This document shows, piece by piece, positions 17,831-63,171 of a DNA stretch of 64,000 nucleotides; position 1 is the stretch's first letter, and every line of letters begins with the position of its first letter. A program made the translations under genes and the position numbers. Source of the stretch: Cynocephalus volans (lineage: Eukaryota > Chordata > Mammalia > Dermoptera > Cynocephalidae); the NCBI RefSeq assembly GCF_027409185.1, contig NC_084463.1:66759852-66823851 (forward strand). The letters are read 5' to 3'. The notes below the pieces were generated by a model. The model searched no databases and was not told the origin of the DNA. It saw only the letters and a program-made list of their open reading frames with translations.

Positions 17831-19192
17831 GGTGCGTATGGAATTGAGAGTAAAGGCCTTCATGCTTACTTTTCTTTACAGAAATACTTTAAATTTACCT
17901 GTCAGCCCATTTGGGTCTTGTTAATCAAATAAGTAGCTCCTAATTATTTTAAATGACATCAATGTAAAGTATCTATAACTAGAGCATTTGTAATATATGG
18001 TTTGAGTTATATTAAGTTATTTGATTTATTTTTATTCCATTAGTTTCTATATTAGATTTTTTTTAGGCCTTAAAAATAATTTTCTGCAGTTTTTATGCAA
18101 CTATGAAACCCATAACCACCTAAAATGTTCAATATAATGTGTTAATATACTAGTTTTTATACACATTAACATAAAATGTGTTGAATTCATTACAAAACAT
18201 TGTAAAATTCCTATTTGCTGTCTCTTTAAACTCTTCAGTTTGCAGACTAAAATTTGAAAAGTATTCAAAAACAATCCAACCAACTGGTAAGGGCTCCCAA
18301 GAAGTAGCATTGATCACCATAGGAAATATTGGAAATAAAGATTAATTTGTGGTTCATTAACCTATCTCTGCATTCTTTAGTGTAGAGCAGAAAGCCCTGT
18401 GTTTATCTATTTTTTTTAAAAGGTAATCGATTAATTGTTACTGATTATCACTGTAGGATGAATATTTACCTTTTCTGAAAGTAAAGGTACTCTCTCTGAT
18501 GGTCTGAATTGACTCTGGGAAAACTGTTTTCCTAAACTAGAAATAATAGATAATTTTTACATTTTGCTTTTTTTGAAAGGATGAGTTTGATTTTTAAGTT
18601 AAAAGAATAAATTCAACTGTTTATAGTTTTAGGCATTGAAAGTTGAAGTTAACGTTGATTAAATTAGAGTAAACTGAATCAATTTTTCATCGTCTTTGGA
18701 AAACTGCATCAGTGACATAGGAGGCAGAGAGCATGGACTATTAGCAGAGAGACTAGGAGTTGTGTTGTTTATTACAATCATGGAGTCATTGGGAGAGAGA
18801 AAAAAGAGAGACAGAGAGATTTTGGAAGTGCTTCTGGATTAATCAGCTAATACAAATAACTCTAGTATCATCCCAACTTTTACCCTCTGCCCCAAGATTT
18901 AAGCTTGTCCAAGTAATTTAGGTATGATTGAGAACACTGCTTTTTTTTTTAAACAAAAAGGATATGAGAGGGCTATCTCATCTCACGTTCTCATTTGTAT
19001 CACAGTATAAATCCAGTCTGTCTATATTTATCAAGCCTAGGTTTCTACTGAGGGTAAATTAATGTGTAGATTGGACAGAGCTCAAGCAGACAAGTAGAAC
19101 TATCCAAAAGCTTTTTTCCAAAGAATAACTTCCACAAGAATAACTTTATCTCCTCTCTCTCTCTTTAAATTTTTTTTCGATTTTATTTTCAG

Positions 19193-19607
19193 AAACATGG
19201 ATTCAGATACCTTGCAAGCCTTCCAGAGTGAGCTCACATGCTCCATCTGCATAAACTACTTCATAGACCCTGTCACCATCAACTGTGGTCACAGCTTTTG
19301 CAGGCCCTGCCTATACCTCTGCTGGGAGGAAGCCCAAACGTCAATGTGCTGCCCTGAGTGCAGGGAAATATCAGAGAAGCCAGACTTCAAAACCAATATT
19401 GCACTCAAGAGGCTGGCTTCACTTGCTAGACAAGCCAGGCCTTGTCACGTTGACAGCTCTAAGGACCAGATCTGTGTGGCACACAAGGAGGCAAAGGGGC
19501 TCTTCTGTGAAGTGGACAGAAACCTGCTCTGTGGACCCTGCTCTGAATCACTGGAGCACAGGGCTCACAGCCACAGTTCGATAGAATGTGCTGCGGAGGA
19601 ATACCGG
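19193..19607 (+). CDS. TRIM exon 1: RING finger and B-box 2
   Basis: The ATG at 19,197 lies four bases after a good acceptor ('ttttattttcag'), and the exon ends at a 'gtatgt' donor after 137 complete codons. RING ligands are C15, C18, C30, H32, C35, C38, C52 and C55. B-box 2 ligands are C93, H96, C104, D107, C112, C115, H121 and H124. All zinc ligands are present, so this part could still fold and, in a RING E3, bind an E2. It belongs to the interrupted gene described above. A reading of the same frame past the donor adds only intron-coded residues. Confidence 0.85.
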
Positions 19608-20174
19608 GTATGTGATACCCCTAAAGCAAATTTGGAATCTATAGGATTCTAAATCAGAGAGAGAGAGATGAGGACTTATGATAATGAAGTTGATGAGAAT
19701 GGAGATGTTGGAGGTGGTAATTTTTCAATATAAATCCCAAGCTATCGATATGTCCTTTCCATGTTGCTAATCAATGTGATACTTTAATCATGGTTGGGTT
19801 TAGCACTCAGTAAGGGAATTTTCCTTAGGAACATTGTCCAAATATGGGGAATTGGTGCGGATGTGGAGCAGGTGGCTAGTAGCAGGAATACTGGCTTCTG
19901 CTGCAAGCAGAACTCCTTTATAGAAAGATTATATAAAAACAAATTTCTCAGGAGATGGATTATATTATCTGCAGGGTGACTTAAAACTCTCTATTAAATA
20001 TTTCCGTCACATTTAATATCCCAAATATTAGAATCAAATTGCTTATCATGGAAAAACCTGACCACTCCATTCTAACTCAAGACTACTATTCGCTCAACCA
20101 CAGATTTTCCTATAGATAATGGGATGAAATCTACAATATCTTCTTTGTCACTAAAGCTCTTGGTTATTTTGCAG

Positions 20175-48827: not shown

Positions 48828-51800
48828 TTAAATGTTTGGGCTGGCCATATCCTCCATTCTCTGATAGCCGGCTGAGGCTCTTCCCCAACGCAGAACTCTA
48901 GAAAAGCCCTCACCTACAAGCTTGACTTCCTTGTGGGACTTCATACACAGTTTGAGTGCGCTGTCTACTAGGCTGAATGGAGAGCTGCTGTGTCTCTCTG
49001 ATTCCTGGGAGGGAGAAGAATTATATGAATGGGTTGTCTGCACAGTACCAAGTCCTTCCACTGCCTTCATGGGCATGTCTTTCTGTCTCTCTTCCAGTGA
49101 GTTGGCTTCTGCAACACCAGAAGCATGAGGAGGTGGCTCTGAAAGTCCTTTTAGAGAACCTATTTTATTTTCCTCTGGCCTGGCTGCCTTTGCTTTCGTT
49201 TTGAGGGACCAGTTTCTCAAACTGGCTATACCATTTCTCAACCATGTGTTGAGGTGAAGAGTTATAGAACGCATTCGTGAATGCCACCCTACACTATCCT
49301 TATTTGTATTGACGAGGTGGCTGCTGCCCTGCCCTGATGACGGACCAGGCATTCCAGAAATGAAGTTGGAACTGCTAAAGTCAGAAGAAAGCTCTCCCTG
49401 TTTTCTTTGAGCCTGAAAATTGCAATCTATTGGAGAGGGAGTTTCAGTGGGTGTAAACACGGAATGTTCAGAAATCTGAGAAAAAGGACTGTCCTGACAG
49501 CTCGCTGATGAGCCAGATGCGGAAGTGCCTGGGGAGGATAAGCTGGAACAGCTAGTCTTTGGGCAAAGGCTTAATCTTTGGGGTAAAACCTTCTCAGAGT
49601 TTTGGTTTGTGGCACTACTCTTGCCCAACTCAATCCCCATGACCAAACTCTGATTAATAAGCTTTTGACCCTCCATTTGCAAAGACTTATGCTGTTTGAG
49701 ATAATCCTCCTCTCCCTGCAAGAGACCAGCTTCACAGCTGGTTTTATGTTGTTTCTTTGAATCAATCAACCTGAGATACATCAGTTTGCAGTGCTGGTTA
49801 TCTATGTTGGGCTCTGAGCAGTGCCAGTGTGTCCTTGAACTCTTGAGGGTACCTGTTGTGTGTGGCAGGGAGTATCCCGATGTATCTTCATCAAAGGGCT
49901 GGTTCCTGGAATGATCTTGTGAGGACATATGACGATATGATGCCACAGAAAAGGACACTGGCTTGGACTTAGGGAAAAGTTTTTCATGATTTCCTTCAGT
50001 ACCAGACATGCTTTTCTTCTTAATGTTTTGATTGGTGGCATTTTTCTTGCTGACATTAGTGCTTGTGACTGAGCTCTGTTTAAAACATATCTTGGACTTA
50101 GGGAAAAGTTTTTCATGATTTCCTTCAGTACCAGACATGCTTTTCTTCTTAATGTTTTGATTGGTGGCATTTTTCTTGCTGACATTAGTGCTTGTGACTG
50201 AACTCTGTTTAAAACATATCTTGGACTTAGGGAAAAGTTTTTCATGATTTCCTTCAGTACCAGACATGCTTTTCTTCTTAATGTTTTGATTGGTGGCATT
50301 TTCCTTGCTGACATTAGTGCTTGTGACTGAACTCTGTTTAAAACATATCTTGGACTTAGGGAAAAGTTTTTCATGATTTCCTTCAGTACCAGACATGCTT
50401 TTCTTCTTAATGTTTTGATTGGTGGCATTTTTTTTGCTGACATTAGTGCTTGTGACTGAACTCTGTTTAAAACATATCTTGGACTTAGGGAAAAGTTTTT
50501 CATGATTTGCTTCAGTACCAGACATGCTTTTCTTCTTAATGTTTTGATTGGTGGCATTTTCCTTGCTGACATTAGTGCTTGTGACTGAACTCTGTTTAAA
50601 ACATATCTTGGACTTAGGGAAAAGTTTTTCATGATTTGCTTCAGTACCAGACATGCTTTTCTTCTTAATGTTTTGATTGGTGGCATTTTCCTTGCTGACA
50701 TTAGTGCTTGTGACTGAACTCTGTTTAAAACATATCTTGGACTTAGGGAAAATTTTTTCATGATTTCCTTCAGTACCAGACATGCTTTTCTTCTTAATGT
50801 TTTGATTGGTGGCATTTTCCTTGCTGACATTAGTGCTTGTGACTGAACTCTGTTTAAAACATATCTTGGACTTAGGGAAAAGTTTTTCATGATTTCCTTC
50901 AGTACCAGACATGCTTTTCTTCTTAATGTTTTGATTGGTGGCATTTTCCTTGCTGACATTAGTGCTTGTGACTGAACTCTGTTTAAAACATATCTTGGAC
51001 TTAGGGAAAAGTTTTTCATGATTTCCTTCAGTACCAGACATGCTTTTCTTCTTAATGTTTTGATTGGTGGCATTTTTTTTGCTGACATTAGTGCTTGTGA
51101 CTGAACTCTGTTTAAAACATATCTTGGACTTAGAGAAAAGTTTTTCATGATTTGCTTCAGTACCAGACATGCTTTTCTTCTTAATGTTTTGATTGGTGGC
51201 ATTTTCCTTGCTGACATTAGTGCTTGTGACTGAACTCTGTTTAAAACATGTCTTATCCCCTTCCTGGAGAGATTGATTCTGCTTCAGATAATCCTCATCT
51301 TTTTGAGAGAAAATTGCAACATGGCTGGACTTGCGTAACTTTTTCTGATAAAACTCCTTGAGAGAGGAAAGCTTAGAATCTAGATAGTTGGTGCAGGGCT
51401 TCGAGCAGCGCCGGAGTCGACTCAGGGTTTTTGGAGCTTCTGTTGCATCTGAGGACAGGTAGCTGGGTGAGCACAAGTCAGATGGGGCACTGAAATGCTC
51501 CTGCAGTGGAAGGGCCTCTCTGTACATCACTATAGCAGTCATCAGCTTGGATTCAAGAGGCTGGTTCCTTTGAATGTCTTCATCTTTAGACTGGTCTAAG
51601 TCAAAGTCACTCAGGGTTAAAAAGCCTTCAACCTCAGGCTGGTCAAGGTCTTCCGTCTCAGGCTGCTCGAGGACATCAGCCTCAAGCTGGTCAGGGCCTT
51701 CGACCTGAGGCTGGTCAGGGTCCTCGGCCTCAGGCTGGTCAAGGCCTTTGACCTCAGGCTGGTCAAGGCCTTCGACCTCAGGCTGGTCAAGGCCTTCCAC

Positions 51801-54800
51801 TTCAGGCTGGTCAAGGCCTTCGGCCTCAGGCTGGTCAAGGTCTTCCATCTCAGGCTGGTCAAGGCCTTTGACCTCAGGCTGGTAATGGTCTTCCATCTCA
51901 GGCTGGTCAAGGCTTTCGACCTCAGGCTGGTCCAGGCCTTCCGCCTCAGGCTGATCAAGGTTTTCAGCCTCAGCCTGGTCAGGGCCTTCGGCCTCAGGCT
52001 GGTCAGGGCCTTCGACCTGAGGCTGGTCAAGGCCGTCCGCCTCAGACTGGTCAGTGCCTTCGGCCTCAGGCTGCTCAGTGCCTTTGGCCTCAGGCTGGTC
52101 AAGGCCTTTGGCCTGCGGATGGTCAGGGCCTTCGACCTCAGGCTGGTCAGGGTCTTCCATCTCAGGCTGGTCAAGGCCTTCCATCTCAGGCTGGTCAAGG
52201 CCTTCAGCCTCAGGCTCGTCAAGGCCTTCGACCTGAGACTGGTCAAGGCCTTCGGCCTCAGGATGGTCAAGGCCATCGGCCTCAGGCTGGTCAAGGTCTT
52301 TGACCTCAAGCAGGTCAGGGTCTTCTATCTCAGGCTGGTCAAGGCCTTTGGCCTCAGGCTGGTCAGGGCTTTCGGCCTCAGGCTCGTCAAGGCCTTCGAC
52401 CTCAGGCTGGTCAAGGCCGTCCTCCTCAGGCTGCTCAAGGCCTTCGACCTCAGGCTGGTCAGGGTCTTCCATCTCAGCCTGGTCAAGGCCTTCAGCCTCA
52501 GGCTTGTCGAGGCTTTCGGCCTCAGACTGGTCAGGGCCATCCACCTGAGGCTGGTCAGGGCCTTCAACCTCAGGCTGGTCAGGGTCTTCGGCCTGAGGCT
52601 GGTCAGGGTCTTTGACCTCAAGCTGGTCAGGGTCTTCTATCTCAGGCTGGTCAAGGCCTTTGGCCTCAGGCAGGTCAGGGCTTTCGGCCTCAGGCTGGTC
52701 AGGGTCTTCGGCCTCAGGCTGGTCAAGGCCTTCCAGCTCAGGCTGGTCAAGGCCTTCCGCCTCAGGCTGGTCAGGGCCTTCGACCTGAGGCTGGTCAGAG
52801 TCTTCGGCCTGAGGCTGGTCAGGGCCTTCAGCCAGAGGCTGGTCAGGGTTTTCGACCTCAAGCTGGTCAAGGTCTTCGATCTCAGGCTGCTCAAGGCCTT
52901 CGGCCTCAGGCTGCTCAAGGCCTTCGGCCTCAGGCTGCTCAAGGCCTTCGGCCTCAGGCTGGTAAGGGCTTTCGGCCTCAGACTGTTCAGGGCCTTTGGC
53001 CTGAGGCTGGTCAGGGCCTTCAACCTGAGGCTGGTAAGGGCCTTCGGCCTCTGGCTGGTCAAGGCCTTTGGCATCAGGCTGGTCAAGGTCTCCCATCTCA
53101 GGCTGGTCAAGGACTTCGACCTCAGGCTTGTCAAGGCCTTCCATCTCAGGCTGGTCAAGGCCTTCGGCCACAGGCTGGTCAAGGGTATCCACCTCAGGCT
53201 CATCAAGGCCTTCGACCTCAGGCTGGTCAAGGCCGTCCTCCTCAGGCTGGTCAAGGCCTTCGGCCTGAGGCTGGTCAGGGTCTTCGGCCTGAGGCTGGTC
53301 AAGGCCTTCCATCTCAGGCTGCTCAATGCCTTCGGCCTCAGGCTGGTCAGAGCCTACAACCTGAGGCTGTTCAGGGCCTTCGGCCTGAGGCTGGTCAGGG
53401 CCTTCAAACTGAGGCTGTTCAGGGCCTTCGGCCTCAGGCTGGTCAGGGCCTTCGGCCTCAGGCTGGTCAAGGTCTTCCATCTCAGGCTGGTCAAGGCCTT
53501 CGACCTCAGGCTGTTCAAGGCCATCGGCCTCAGGCTGGTCAAGGCCTTCCGCTTCAGGCTGGTCAAGGCCTTCCATTACAGGCAGGTCAAAGACTTCAGC
53601 CTCAGGCTGGTGAAGGCCTTTGACCTGAGGCTGGTAAAGGCCTTCGGCCTCAGGCTGGTCAGGGTCTTCCATCTCAGGCTGGTCAAGGCCTTTGGCCTCA
53701 GGCTGGTAAAGGTCTTCCATCTCAGGCTGGTCTAGGCCTTCAACCTCAGGCTGGTCAAGGCCTTCCGCCTCAGGCTGGTCAAGGCTTTTGGCCTCAGCCT
53801 GGTCAGGGCCTGCGGCCTCAGGCTGGTCAGGGCCTTCGACCTGAGGCTGGTCGGTGCCTTCAGCCTGAGGCTGGTCAGGGTCTTCGGCCTGAGGCTGGTC
53901 AGGGTTTTCGACCTCAACCTGGTCAGGGTCTTCGATCTCAGGCTGCTCAAGGCCTTCGGCCTCAGGCTGGTCAAGGCTATCCGCCTCAGGCTGCTCAAGG
54001 CCTTCGGCCTCAGGCTGGTCAAGGCTATCCGCCTCAGGCTGCTCAAGGCCTTCGGCCTCAGGCTGGTAAGGGCTTTCGGCCTCAGGCTGGTCAGAGCCTT
54101 CGACCTGAGGCTGTTCATGGCCTTCGGCCTGAGGCTGGTCAGGGCCTTCGACCTGAGACTGGTCAGCGCCTTCGGCCTCAGGCAGGTCAGGGCCTTCGGC
54201 CTCAGGCTGGTCAAGGCCTTCGGCCTCTGGCTGGTCAAGGCCTTCAGCCTCAGGCTGGTCAAGGTCTTCCATCTCAGGCTGGTCAAGGCCTTCGGCCTCA
54301 GGCTGGTCAAGGCTATCCGCCTCAGGCTGGTCAAGGCCTTTGACCTCGGGCTGGTCAAGGCCATCCACTTCAGGCTGGTCAAGGCCTTCGGCCTGAGGCT
54401 GGTCAGGGTCTTCGACCTCAAGCTGGTCAGGGTCTTCAATCTCAGGCTGCTCAAGTCCTTCGGCCTCAGGCTGGTCAGAGCCTTCGACCTGAGGCTGTTC
54501 AGGGCCTACGGCCTGAGGCTGGTCAGGGCCTTCGAACTGAGGCTGTTCAGGGCCTTCGGCCTGAGGCTGCTCAGGGCCTTCGGCCTCAGGGTGGTCAAGG
54601 CCATCGGCCTCCGGCTGGTCAAGGCCTTCCGCCTCAGGCTGGTCACGGCCTTCGGCCTGAGGCTGGTCAGGGTCTTCCATCTCACGCTGTTCAGGGCCTT
54701 CCATCTCAGGCTGATCAAGGTCTTCCATCTCAGGCTGGTCAAGGCCTTCGCCCTCAGGCTGGTCAAGGCCTTCGACCTCAGGCTGGTCAAGGCCTTCCGC

Positions 54801-57199
54801 CTCAGGCTGGTCACGGCCTTCGGCCTGATGCTGGTCAGGGTCTTCCATCTCATGCTGGTCAGGGCCTTCCATCTCAGGCTGGTCAAGGCCTTCCGCCTCA
54901 GGCTGGTCAAGGCTTTCGGCCTCAGGCTGGTCAAGGCCGTTCGCCTGAGGCTGGTCAGGGCCTTCGACCTCAGGCTGGTCAGGGTGTTCCATCTCAGGCT
55001 GGTCAAGGCCATCAGCCTCAAGCTGGTCAGGGCCTTTGACCTGAGGCTGGTCTAGTTCCTCGGCCTCAGGCTGGTCAAGGCCTTTGACCTCAGGCTGGTC
55101 AAGGCCTTCCATTTCAGGCTGGTCAGGGACTTCAGCCTCAGGCTTGTGAAGGCCTTCGGACTCAGGCTGGTCAGGGTCTTCCATCTCAGGCTGGTCAAGG
55201 CCTTCAACTTCAGGCTGGTCAAGGCCTTCAACCTCAGTCTGCTCAAGGCCTTCTGCCTCAGGCTGGTCAAGGATTTTGGCCTCAGCCTGGTCAGGGCCTT
55301 TGACCTGAGGCTGGTCAAGGCCGTCCGACGCAGGCTGGTCAGTGCCTTCGGCCTGAGGCTGGTCAGGGTCTTCGGCCTGCGGCTGTTCAGGGTCTTCGAC
55401 CTCAGGCTGGTCAGGGTCTTCCATCTCAGGCTGGTCAAGGCCTTCAACCTCAGGCTCGTCAAGGCCATTGACCTGAGACTGGTCAAGGCCTTCGGCCTCA
55501 GGATGGTCAAGGCCATCGGCCTCAGGCTGGTAAGGGCTTTCGGCCTCGGGCTGGTCAGGGCTTTCAGCCTCCGGCTGGTAAGGGCTTTCGGCCTCAGGCT
55601 GGTCAGGGCATTCAACCTGAGGCTGGTCAGGGCCTTCGGCCTCAGGCTGGTCAGGGCCGTCAACCTGAGGCTGGTCAGGGTCTTCGGCCTGAGGCTGGTC
55701 TGGGTCTTCGACCTCAAGCTGGTCAGGGTCTTCCATCTCAGGCTGCTCAAGGCCTTTGACCTCAGGCTGGTCAAGACCATTGGCCTCACGCCTGTCACGG
55801 TCTTCCATCTGAGGCTGGTCAAGGCCTTCGGCCTGAGGCTGGTCAGGGTCTTCGACCCCAAGCTGGTCAGGGTCTTCCATCTCAGGCTGGTAAGGGCTTT
55901 CAGCCTCAGGCTGGTCAGAGCCTTCGACCTGAGGCTGTTCAGGGCCTTCGGCCTGAGGCTGGTCAAGGCCATCCGCCTCAGGCTGGTCACGGCCTTCGAC
56001 CTGAGGCTGGTCAGGGCCTGCGACCTGAGGCTGGTCAGGGCCATCGGCCTGAGGCTGGTCAGGGTCTTCGACCTCAGGCTGGTCAGGGTCTTCCATCTCA
56101 GGCTGGTCAAGGCCTTCGGCCTCAGGCTGGTCAGGGCCGTCCGTCTCAGGCTGGTCAGGGCCTTCGGCCTGAGGCTGGTCAGGGCCTTCGGCCTGAGGCT
56201 GGTCAGGGTCTTCCATCTCAGGCTGGTCAAGGCCTTCGGCCTCAGGCTGGTCAGGGCCGTCCGTCTCAGGCTGGTCAGGGCCTTCGACCTGAGGCTGGTC
56301 AGGGCCTTCGGCCTGAGGCTGGTCAGGGTCTTCCATCTCAGGCGGGTCAAGGCCTTCAGCCTCAGGCTGGTCAAGGTCTTCCGTCTCAGGCTGGTCACGG
56401 CCTTCGGTCTCAGGCTGGTCAGGGCAGTCCGCCTCAGGCTGGTAAGGGCCTTCGACCTGATGCTGGTCAGGGCCTTTGGCCTGAGGCTGGTCAGGGTCTT
56501 TGACCTCAGGCTCGTCAGGGTCTTTGGCCTGAGGCTGGTCAGGGTCTTCCATCTCAGGCTGGTCAAGCCCTTCAGCCTCAGGCTGGTCAGAGCCTTCGAC
56601 CTGAGGCTGGTCAGGGCCTTCGGCCTGAGGCTGGTCAGGGTCTTCCATCTCAGGCGGGTCAAGGCCTTCAGCCTCAGGCTGGTCAAGGTCTTCTGTCTCA
56701 GGCTGGTCACGGCCTTCGGTCTCAGTCTGGTCAGGGCAGTCCGCCTCAGGCTGGTAAGGGCCTTCGACCTGATGCTGGTCAGGGCCTTTGGCCTGAGGCT
56801 GGTCAGGGTCTTCGACCTCAGGCTCGTCAGGGTCTTTGGCCTGAGGCTGGTCAGGGTCTTCCATCTCAGGCTGGTCAAGCCCTTCGGCCTCAGGCTGGTC
56901 AAGGCCTTCAACCTGAGGCTGGTCAAGGCTTTCCGCCCCAGGCTGGTCAAGGCCTTCAACCTCAGGCTGGTCAAGGTCTTCCATCTCAGGCTGGTCAAGG
57001 TCTTCAGCCTCAAGCTGGTCAAGGCCTTCGGCCTTAGGCTGGTCAAGACTATGGTCACTGAGGGTTAAGACAGAGTCCATCGTTCTGCTACTCTGGTCAA
57101 GTTTATTTGCCAAGTCACAACATGGAGCATCCACATCCCCATTTACTTCATTTTCCAAGCTGTCATGGGAAGAGTCACTTGGTTGGAAGCAAGAGATAG
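48828..57199 (-). CDS. ARHGAP20: Terminal exon of ARHGAP20 (RA-RhoGAP) or a close paralogue, hugely expanded by two coding minisatellites
   Basis: ARHGAP20 is a Rap1-responsive GTPase-activating protein for Rho (PH, Ras-association and RhoGAP domains, then a long disordered tail); this exon is the tail. It begins after a T-rich tract and 'ttgacag' at 57,200-57,204; two bases complete a codon left by the previous exon, then ISCFQPSDSSHDSLENEVNG. In order: about 50 unique residues ending VLTLSDHSL; 226 acidic octapeptides; LTLSDFDLDQSKDED; about 110 unique residues with KEFYQKKLRKSS and DEDYLKQ; ten 43-residue repeats; then a tail with EEDYLKQHKSLQ, FTPTETPSPIDC, SGMPGPSSGQ and LKLCMKSHKE. These motifs match human ARHGAP20 as I remember it. 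The frame is open for about 2,790 codons against about 1,190 for the entire human protein. The stop follows MASPNI, about 17 residues before the family's end. Upstream in-frame codons to 57,272 are intronic. Confidence 0.9.
49965..51254 (-). repeat. Coding minisatellite: 10 x 129 bp (43 residues)
   Basis: Ten head-to-tail units, exactly 1,290 bp. Each begins K-[IT]-C-F-K-Q-S-S-V-T and ends H-E-K-[LI]-F-[PS]-K-S. Variation is confined to a few positions: KENAT versus KKNAT, EGNH versus EANH, L/I and P/S. The near identity at DNA level indicates recent expansion or homogenisation. Each unit has 8 K and about 3 E, so it is basic and Ser/Thr/Asn-rich. A diverged single relative follows in the exon (QKLINQSLV ... 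KSSATNQNSEK). Confidence 0.97.
51621..57044 (-). repeat. Coding minisatellite: 226 x 24 bp acidic octapeptide array
   Basis: Span 5,424 bp = exactly 226 units of 24 bp, with no net frame change. The unit is D-Q-P-[EQ]-[AMV]-[EKD]-[GD]-[LP]. On the plus strand it reads as a variable 'caggctggtcaaggccttcg' core. No stop occurs over about 1,808 residues. Most units carry three acidic residues, so the segment should be strongly acidic, proline-periodic and disordered. Higher-order copies are visible with periods of 312 bp (about 56.34 and 56.65 kb), 120 bp (56.1-56.33 kb) and 48 bp (53.94-54.06 kb). Confidence 0.98.
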
Positions 57200-58321: not shown

Positions 58322-58436
58322 CTGAGGCATTCTGTCTAGTGTCACATCTCACTGAAGTCTCTCCTAAGAGGGAAGTAATTTCTTCACCAAATATCGTGCA
58401 GCAATTTTCAATCAGAAACTGTACAAGCAGGGGAAC
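58322..58436 (-). CDS. ARHGAP20: ARHGAP20-type exon: end of RhoGAP domain
   Basis: 115 nt, acceptor 'cttttttacag' and donor 'gtattg' on the minus strand. It encodes VPLLVQFLIENCC then TIFGEEITSLLGE and VRCDTRQNAS plus one base, which joins the 2-base start of the terminal exon. LIENC and FGEE are the C-terminal helix and linker of the ARHGAP20 RhoGAP domain as remembered. The phase is 0 at the start, matching the 190-nt exon before it. No stops are present. Confidence 0.92.
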
Positions 58437-59607: not shown

Positions 59608-59797
59608 CTTTTTTGTAAATTCATATTCTACTTCTGGCCTGGAGGAAAGAGGAGGCCAAAGTATGCTTGGAGCGATACACACAGCTAAATTATATGCAGT
59701 CATCTGGTTACACGAGGACTGTTGTTCGATGTTGTGTAATACCCCAAAAAGATACCTTAGGAGAACAACATTTGCTCTCGGAAGCTGGTCTAATAGC
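59608..59797 (-). CDS. ARHGAP20: ARHGAP20-type exon: RhoGAP domain, middle/late part
   Basis: 190 nt (one base completing a codon plus 63 codons), acceptor 'tctgtctttag' and donor 'gtaaag' on the minus strand. It encodes LLDQLPRANVVLLRYLFGV, then HNIEQQSSCNQMTAYNLAVC and IAPSILWPP, and ends EYEFTKK. The N-x-M-T-x-x-N-L-A and A-P-S-I-L-W motifs are classic RhoGAP helices that contact the GTPase; ILWPP is characteristic of ARHGAP20/TAGAP-type domains. Splice phases match on both sides, and there is no disruption. Confidence 0.95.
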
Positions 59798-60439: not shown

Positions 60440-62095
60440 TATATATTTTTTTCATTTTTATTGAATCAAAATTGATTATACATATTTTGGGGGTTCAACA
60501 TAGAGATATGTTGACCAAGCAATATTACTACCCTAAGTATTGTTACAAATCATAATTATTCTTTACACCCTTTGTCCAATCTCTCCCCATACCCCCTGTA
60601 ATTACCCTAGATTTCTTCTCTCCTTCTTAAAGAATAATGGTTACTCTGTTGATTTGTTGCCTAGATGATCTGTCCAATGCTGAGAGGTGTGATCAGGTCC
60701 CCCAATATTATCATAGAACAGATGCTTCTCTGTCACTCTGAAATGGGCTTTGTGGAGAGAGACGTCCTCCTCTTTTCTTTATCTCTGCTGGTGACTCTCC
60801 TTGTGTCAATGCATTCCAGGGGCTGGTGGACAATTTGCATGGTGGTTGTGGCATCTAGCTGCTTTTGTGGCAGCCATGGTTATTGTGATGGCTGTGATGG
60901 GCCACCCACATGCAGGTGATGTTTTTGGCATGCTTCTTGGTGCTGCTGGTGTGCCTGGTTGTGAGGAGTGTCTGGTCCCTGGCTCCATAGCTTGGGTCCC
61001 AAGTTGGGCCCCAAGGAACTGGAGCGGTGCCTGGTTGTGGGAGGGGGCTCCGGTCCCTGGCTCCATGCTTCAGGTCAGCGGGTGAGCCCCGAGGCACTGA
61101 TGCGGTATGTCTGGTTGTGGTTGGGGGTTCTGGTCCCCTTCTCCATGCCTTGGGTCCCCAGGCAGGCCCTGAGGTGCTGGCACAGTGTGCCTGGTTGTGG
61201 GAGGGGGGTCCAGTCCCCACTCCGTGCCTCATGTCCCCTGGCGGACACCAAGGCACTGGTGGTATGCCTGGGCTGGAACTAATTTTTTGTCCTTTTCATC
61301 CCACTTCCTATGGGAATCAGTACTTGAGCTGTGTGGTTGAGCTAAATTGCTGCTTTGTTGCTGTTTCCCTAGGGAAGCCTTTTCTTGCAGCTCAGGGTTT
61401 AATGGTTGACCTTATAGGTACTTCCGCCTCTCCAGAGACCTGGTGCACCTGGGTGGTGTAGAAACTATGATCTAGGCCTGAGTTCTTCCATCAAACTGCA
61501 CCCCATACAATTCTGCATTCCGGACCAGTCTCCTCTGAGTGGTCCTGTGCTGACTGGGGGTCAGATCGGCTGTCCTTGCTGTGTCCCAGTGTTCTCCTGG
61601 TGGGCCTGTCTCCCACAATGCCCATGCTCCAAACAGTTCCCATGGGACGGGGCCTGCACTGGTCCCTTGCGATGACTCATCGGCCTCTGAATGGCTCCCC
61701 TTTTTCAGCTGTTCTGGCTCCTCCTGCGTGGCTCCACGGGAACCCAATTAGTGGTCTTGCTCTCCTGGGGGCCACCAAGGCCCTCTTCTTCCTCCCTGCT
61801 GCCTCCAAGTAACTCCATCTGAAGGACACAGCTGCGGCTTCTGCCGGCTCCTGCTTCATGCACTCAGCAGTTCCAGCCTTAAAGTGGCCGCAGCATGAAA
61901 TGCTCAGAGCAGTTTTTTCTTTCTGTCATCATGGTTTCTCCCACCTTCATGAACTCCATAGGTCTCTCCTTCTCTTCCCCTGAGCTCCAGCAGCCCCAGC
62001 TTGGCTGATGTTACATTTTTACAGTTGTAAATTTGTTGGTTTGTGGGAGAAAGGGATGCTGGGGACCGTCTATTCTGCCATCTTGACCAGAACTT
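60440..62095 (-). mobile_element. Internally deleted ('mini') LINE-1 with tandem 5' UTR monomers
   Basis: From 60,440 the plus strand shows an antisense L1 3' end ('catattttgggggttcaaca'), then a short piece of ORF2 endonuclease region ('ttgcctagatgatctgtcca' near 60,657), then GC-rich 5' UTR-like sequence to 'tgccatcttgaccagaactt' near 62,095, the same 5' terminus seen at 35.7 kb. ORF1 and most of ORF2 are absent. Within the 5' part about four copies of an 80-bp unit beginning 'gcctggttgtgg' start near 60,953, 61,029, 61,109 and 61,189. It sits in the long intron between the 110-nt and 190-nt ARHGAP20 exons. Confidence 0.75.
60953..61275. repeat. About 4 x 80-bp tandem repeat in the LINE-1 5' UTR
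   Basis: Starts of the 'ctggttgtgg' motif are spaced 76, 80 and 80 bp. Each unit continues with 'ctggtccctggctccat' or a near variant. Units differ by substitutions, so the repeat is not very recent. Confidence 0.75.
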
Positions 62096-63061: not shown

Positions 63062-63171
63062 CTTTGAATTGTATTTATTTTCTCTTCATTGTTTCCTTGA
63101 TCCATTACACAGACCCAGTGATCGTAGAGATTTGATGAAAAAATGCTTCCAGGAATATTTCGCAGAAATTC
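63062..63171 (-). CDS. ARHGAP20: ARHGAP20-type exon: RhoGAP domain, early/middle part
   Basis: 110 nt on the minus strand, from an acceptor 'gatgtaag' to a 'gtaatt' donor at 63,061. It encodes EFLRNIPGSIFSSNLYDHWV then CVMDQGNNEEKINTIQ and two bases (AG) completed as R by the next exon. FLRxIPxS is the invariant RhoGAP motif after the lysine codon that precedes an intron in many RhoGAP genes. The pyrimidine tract before the acceptor is short. A plus-strand frame here (63,033-63,239) is a shadow of this exon. The catalytic arginine, RA and PH exons must lie beyond 64,000. Confidence 0.88.

Follow-up and report, generated by a model that had tools for sequence, protein, structure and literature searches.

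The window, i.e., the whole 64,000-nucleotide stretch of Cynocephalus volans DNA that was analysed, contains on its minus strand four coding exons of an ARHGAP20-like gene, the last of which carries two tandem arrays (Table 1). The exons join through three in-phase junctions with GT-AG borders to give 2,928 codons and a stop codon, the upstream border of the most upstream exon being placed at the first AG after a pyrimidine-rich stretch. The encoded protein includes the closing part of a RhoGAP domain, matched over positions 99-147 of the 148 in the Pfam profile, and the nearest PDB entry to this part is Rho GTPase-activating protein 20; the ARHGAP20 type of RhoGAP is recognised on the domain end within the window, and the exon bearing the catalytic arginine presumably lies outside the four exons found there. 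The N-terminal part of the gene falls beyond the window, and both PH and RA domains are present in its sister protein, P0002. If the N terminus is as in P0002, the projected protein has 3,329 aa, compared with 1,142 aa for P0002, so that the large lengthening described in an earlier note on this DNA stands, while its size, given there as more than a doubling, is nearly threefold. In the same gene, an intron holds a minisatellite (60951-61217, about 80 bp x 3.4).

Table 1. Coordinates of the exons and repeat features of the ARHGAP20-like gene in the window
Feature	Position	Strand	Details
Octapeptide array	51621..57044	-	226 x 24 bp, consensus GACCAGCCTGAGGCCGAAGGCCTT = DQPEAEGL, 1,808 residues
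Recent 13-unit (312-bp) internal duplication	56301..56804	-	56804-56613 and copy 56492-56301
Second coding array	49965..51254	-	129 bp (43 aa) x 10, lysine-rich; 98% matches, 10.0 copies (Tandem Repeats Finder)
Last coding exon, with both arrays, to the stop codon	48828..57199	-	8,372 bp; phase-consistent acceptor and open frame
Coding exon before the last, directly past the RhoGAP core (VPLLVQFLIENCC...)	58322..58436	-	
RhoGAP-domain exon (LLDQLPRANVVLLRYLFG...)	59608..59797	-	PF00620, 54.1 bits; PDB 3msx_B, E 4.5e-39
RhoGAP-domain exon (EFLRNIPGSIFSSNLYDHW...)	63062..63171	-	overlaps the P0002 match

The larger array had been described as an exact 226-copy array of 5,424 bp in one open frame. 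Cutting the sequence in register from 57044 downwards gave 226 units of exactly 24 bases with no stop and no indel, the final unit being GACCAGCCTGAGGTTGAAGGCTTT (DQPEVEGF), and Tandem Repeats Finder agreed (51624-57047, period 24, 226.0 copies, 81% matches, 0% indels, score 5918). The array lies inside a single stop-free frame of 2,815 aa (57275-48828, minus strand); across 51621-57044 the coding frame has 0 stops and the remaining five frames have 2, 71, 13, 7, and 394. The word "exact" holds for the length and number of the units and fails for their sequence, since 157 of the 226 units are distinct, with 13% of bases (225 units) and 28.7% of residues (226 units) differing from the consensus. 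The G+C content is 62-64% in the array versus 37-39% in the three kilobases upstream of it. On the opposite strand, the in-register antisense frame (51621-57068, plus) is interrupted by only two stops in the array, leaving open runs of 704, 439, and 670 codons; since this frame has no stop deficit in the substitution test described below, its openness is read as a by-product of composition.

With 629 acidic and 37 basic residues (net charge, -592), 16% proline, and no tryptophan, the encoded 1,808-residue stretch is probably disordered: a single-sequence AlphaFold2 model of its first 40 units had a mean pLDDT of 48.4, with 0 residues at 70 or above, and DSSP returned nothing on the model of these 40 units, results that agree with disorder but weigh little. 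A Pfam match of the exon to Fibrinogen_BP (20.9 bits; cut-off, 50) was below threshold and was set aside as repeat composition. The second, basic array of a 43-aa element in the same exon is an addition to the original finding. Its net charge is +59 over the 431 residues counted, and its copies differ on average at 2.16 of 129 bases (range, 0-5), being so nearly alike that this array is probably much younger. The 43-aa element occurs as a single copy in the C. volans proteins P0002, P0003, and P0004, and about half of it is missing in P0005.

A search with the arrays removed placed four C. volans proteins named "rho GTPase-activating protein 20-like" at the top of the best 120 of 362 matches, with P0002 the highest at 91% identity over the array-less query. 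Outside the arrays, the flanks agree with P0002 at 638 of 658 residues (97.0%; 148/153, 122/127, and 368/378). A 20-row tree, into which three outgroup rows were entered untrimmed, placed the gene among ARHGAP20 proteins as the partner of P0002 (100/100), and the five colugo rows together formed a clade (also 100/100). Judged by these comparisons of sequence, the array-bearing gene is one of several colugo ARHGAP20-like paralogues; the earlier identification of the exon as being of ARHGAP20 type is borne out, while the gene is not a simple mammalian orthologue but groups with the colugo ARHGAP20-like family. Duplicates named as ARHGAP20-like occur in camel, alpaca, a bat (Miniopterus), and a kangaroo rat as well, which suggests that the gene may be duplication-prone in mammals. 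We take ARHGAP20 to be the protein known as RA-RhoGAP. In the available text of one source, RA-RhoGAP is described as relaying a Rap1 signal to Rho and as occurring in male germ cells (PMC3955676).

The unit occurs once between LTLSD and LTLSDFDL (or variants of these) in 115 of the 116 non-colugo entries among the best 120 of 362 matches, the remaining entry being an elephant fragment without the region; these entries include isoforms and fragments and so represent fewer than 116 species. The earlier expectation of a single unit in other mammals is thereby confirmed, and a similar array in the orthologues of all mammals is excluded for the proteins examined. The C. volans paralogues carry one (P0002 and P0003) or two (P0004 and P0005) units. 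These copy counts leave out the salmon LPIN1 protein P0140 and the matches of the whole-exon search. A further 19 proteins from a search with 900 array-rich residues (P0141-P0159) contain the unit pattern once in 10 cases and twice in 1 case, where the second match lies elsewhere in the protein; the pattern is absent in 8, which come from turtles, a gar, and a glider. The same array was found in no other protein listed either by the search with the frame of the entire exon (for relatives between about 1,550 and 4,930 aa; 18 matches) or by that with the array-rich residues (about 495-1,575 aa; best 120 of 129 matches), both of which confined scoring to the approximately 8,000 candidates with most words in common; their matches were ARHGAP20 proteins, primate RP1L1-like proteins, and salmon LPIN1. 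The last of these, P0140, the top match of the array-rich search, is a LOW QUALITY LPIN1 model from chum salmon (51% over 13% of the query) and is possibly another acidic repeat expansion. The gene model P0122 (2,972 aa) of another bat was considered as a second expansion and rejected, since it strings together several ARHGAP20 copies, with gene parts head to tail and, as judged by eye, one unit in the tail where a tail is present.

The units are not randomly ordered along the array. The mutual information between neighbouring unit types is 0.60 bits versus 0.34 +/- 0.04 in shuffled arrays, a value reached in 0 of 2,000 shuffles. An eight-unit stretch (56804-56613) reappears 13 units on, its 192 bp differing at 2 positions, and further eight-unit recurrences lie 5 units on with 6 mismatches and 76 units on with 12, while the minimum among 50 shuffled arrays was 13 mismatches. 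From this ordering and from the blocks that recur at distances of 13 and 5 units, the natural reading would be growth via slippage or exchange of multi-unit blocks, and the proposal that the array arose by in-frame tandem duplication from one ancestral unit gains support both from these blocks and from the single unit in relatives. A few blocks look recent, and the rest of the array looks scrambled. Hairpin-driven slippage was considered and is not claimed: a 5-bp stem closed by a GAA loop is open to the consensus unit, but 11 of 200 shuffles reach an equal fold (z, -1.8), while a two-unit piece gave a weak signal (z, -2.6; 2 of 200 shuffles).

The age of the array is less simply accounted for. 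Its units have drifted from the consensus at 13% of bases, compared with a 3% residue difference between the flanks and single-unit P0002, and simple recent growth is insufficient to explain this divergence next to near-identical flanks without a raised mutation rate or a loss in P0002. Two alternative rationales are available: either (i) the array predates the split from P0002, and P0002 shrank back, or (ii) bases in the array mutate several times faster. The inferred changes among units comprise 93 transitions and 118 transversions, including 29 changes of C to G on the coding strand, a count in which recurrent transitions may be underrepresented. Such a transversion-heavy mix is odd for mammalian DNA.

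The same features bear on the reality of the array. That the array or its length is an artefact of assembly would be in keeping with the single sequence copy seen; the 157 distinct units, their largely nonperiodic order, and the lack of any indel are unlike a mis-assembled or error-laden tandem, and we regard an artefact as very improbable. Assembly collapse usually shortens arrays, and the exact length given here is best taken as provisional.

To separate protection of the frame from protection of the residues, substitutions among units were placed on minimum spanning trees of unit types, in which recurrent changes are undercounted, and were compared with an expectation obtained by moving each change to a randomly chosen base of like kind. 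The 211 inferred substitutions comprised 48 synonymous and 163 nonsynonymous changes, where 47.5 and 152, respectively, were expected (ratio, about 1.06). Changes creating a stop numbered 0 against 11.4 expected, with fewer than 2 never obtained in 2,000 simulations, and three randomised trees likewise gave 0 against 9.2-9.7. With CpG treated as its own class, five trees gave 0, 0, 0, 1, and 1 stops against 7.6-7.9 expected; the single inferred stop is a tree intermediate, the array itself being without one. Among the control frames (three trees), four of five were near expectation, and none had a deficit like that of the coding frame; one (the sense frame shifted by two) had an excess of new stops (16, 12, and 12 versus about 6), which marks the null as imperfect. 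At the level of single bases, the second base of the unit (the A of the Asp codon) had 0 changes against 6.3 expected (P = 0.002, one tree, uncorrected). Statistically, the open frame is protected and residue identity is unprotected. The kept frame is most simply explained if the protein is made and the tail beyond the array matters, and the unprotected residues speak against a sequence-specific binding platform; the readings that these tests would leave are a spacer or brush acting through bulk properties, or simple tolerance.

Taken together, the array is, in our judgement, quite likely a translated coding minisatellite (an exonic VNTR) in a colugo ARHGAP20-like paralogue that is tolerated, with the open frame as its sole clear constraint. 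The proposed course of events would be as follows: (i) one ancestral unit multiplied in frame by slippage or unequal block exchange; (ii) the array, if translated as we infer, would give a RhoGAP protein with a strongly acidic, probably disordered run of 1,808 residues and, behind it, a short block of basic repeats; (iii) the array would be tolerated because it presumably sits in a tail that was disordered already, in a gene that is duplicated and partly redundant; (iv) any effect would come from length and charge, through electrostatic or steric shielding or the spacing between the GAP domain and the C terminus, and not from a specific binding sequence.

Rather than being tolerated, the array could have been positively selected to serve as an acidic brush of tunable length or a condensate-forming tail that alters GAP access, localisation, or Rho/Rap signalling, the counter-charge being supplied by the basic 43-aa array. 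Two arrays of opposite charge grown in one exon and a kept reading frame speak for this, and gains of Lys or Arg are rarer than expected (17-22 versus 24-28; P = 0.003-0.049, five trees, uncorrected); the CpG classes moreover lift the nonsynonymous ratio to 1.3-1.5, an excess by which "neutral" may be too simple a description. However, the loss of acidic residues is not clearly depleted, whether measured as changes towards positive charge (20.4% versus 24.3% expected; P = 0.07) or in the trees with CpG classes (P = 0.12-0.31), hydrophobic gains are if anything commoner than expected (P = 0.017-0.139, five trees, uncorrected), and several categories were tested without correction; selection for acidity is only marginal in the substitution tests. 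Keeping the frame open could just as well benefit the conserved C-terminal tail that follows the array, and an intermediate length occurs in none of the relatives examined. We therefore consider selection an unlikely driver. A bolder form of the idea, equally tentative and doubtful, is that the colugo RhoGAP tail may be a giant length-tunable polyelectrolyte (about 1,800 residues with a net charge of -592, then a basic part of +59) kept open by selection on bulk charge and length and not on sequence, which would turn a duplicated enzyme into an electrostatic brush or condensate scaffold.

The opposite view, in which the gene is a decaying duplicate, a pseudogene or nearly so, and the array a passive minisatellite growth without consequence, would fit a locus in a lineage-specific multicopy family whose repeat-encoded amino acids drift freely; no colugo protein of this length is found among the 18 long-protein matches, though four C. 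volans paralogues are in the database. Against decay, no stop or frameshift occurs in the 8.4-kb exon or in the other three exons of the window, stops are in deficit in the array, and the flanks have kept their near identity with P0002, which together make decay quite improbable. It is likewise conceivable that the array is spliced from the mRNA as an in-frame exitron, an internal segment that can be either removed or kept, and that the long tail is rarely made, given that each of the 32 GAG|GT sites in the array, like 240 of its 243 CAGCC/CAGG sites, coincides with a codon end and would splice in frame. This phase is, however, a trivial consequence of the repeat, the donors are of a weak type as judged by eye (25 of 32 are GAGGTCGAA or GAGGTCAAA), the consensus unit lacks a long pyrimidine tract, and constant splicing-out should have let stops accumulate in the array, so that we give an exitron hardly any credence.

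With the tolerated coding minisatellite as the preferred reading, the array can be set beside known systems. Lineage-specific, frame-keeping exonic VNTRs are a recognised class, for which the available text of one source names RUNX2, PRDM9, NBPF, LPA, FLG, ACAN, and the mucins as examples (PMC12776774). The colugo array is like the mammalian exonic VNTRs described in the accessible parts of the sources in having a unit that is a multiple of three, a kept frame, and a lineage-specific copy number (PMC12776774; PMC1273636): head-to-tail units divisible by three (226 x 24 bp) lie in an open coding exon, and the copy number is 226 here against 1, 1, 2, and 2 in the paralogues and 1 in 115 of the 116 non-colugo entries listed. 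As far as can be tested, it would represent an extreme case of a protein-coding minisatellite or exonic VNTR. The word "ARHGAP" is absent from the main text of PMC12776774, and the titles and opening lines of abstracts retrieved for ARHGAP20 together with repeat, tandem repeat, colugo, or gene duplication contain no report of the array.

The nearest known cases found, as far as the available texts go, are MUC5AC in geometry and RP1L1 in composition and lineage restriction. The coding VNTR in exon 31 of MUC5AC is described, in the portion of the source at hand, as consisting of degenerate 24-base, 8-residue units, of which 206 human haplotypes yielded 211 distinct 24-mers and 130 distinct 8-mers; by that account the units belong to a secreted protein, show Thr/Ser patterning, are glycosylated, and are constrained in how they change (PMC10983947). 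The colugo array shares this geometry of 24 bases and 8 residues, with 157 distinct 24-mers in one copy; unlike what is described there, its units are acidic, lie in a RhoGAP protein, and are unconstrained in residue change. Nor is its composition of the Ser/Thr-rich mucin type, as Ser accounts for 30 of 1,808 residues and Thr is outside the ten commonest. The repeat of RP1L1, according to the accessible part of its source, comprises 28 x 16 aa in human, is lacking in mouse, and is rich in Glu, Gln, and Gly (PMC12206149). Of the 18 whole-exon matches, 16 bear the name RP1L1 or RP1-like 1, and another, an unnamed primate protein, shares the doublecortin Pfam entry of RP1L1. Both are lineage-restricted coding repeats of similar composition, whereas gene and unit differ, and the colugo array, set against the RP1L1 repeat as there described, has about four times the residues (1,808 versus 448); the similarity is read as compositional, not as homology.

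Compared with ARHGAP20 itself, the colugo gene retains the RhoGAP region, the C-terminal tail, and the ancestral context of LTLSD, DQPEVEG, and LTLSDFDL, and differs in having 226 units instead of one and ten 43-aa elements instead of one. Its C terminus (48828-48900, minus) is also shorter, ending about 17 residues before that of Rhinopithecus P0008, as is likewise seen in the four C. volans paralogues; this is possibly a change common to colugos. Here an extreme coding repeat occurs in a signalling enzyme, outside the mucins and barrier proteins, and the state with one unit is documented for many mammals. Because constraint on the frame is separated here from constraint on residues, it offers a test case for selection on the length and charge of a disordered tail alone, and it suggests how gene duplication may let a short conserved motif run away.

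Elsewhere in the window, no known RNA family was found at gathering thresholds, and a scan for SINE heads at 70% identity found none, the window giving only L1-like pieces. Downstream of the ARHGAP20-like gene, an open frame at 19098-19652 on the plus strand encodes a RING finger and a B-box, with TRIM21 as its nearest relative in the PDB, and is a candidate TRIM-type gene, exon or retrocopy.
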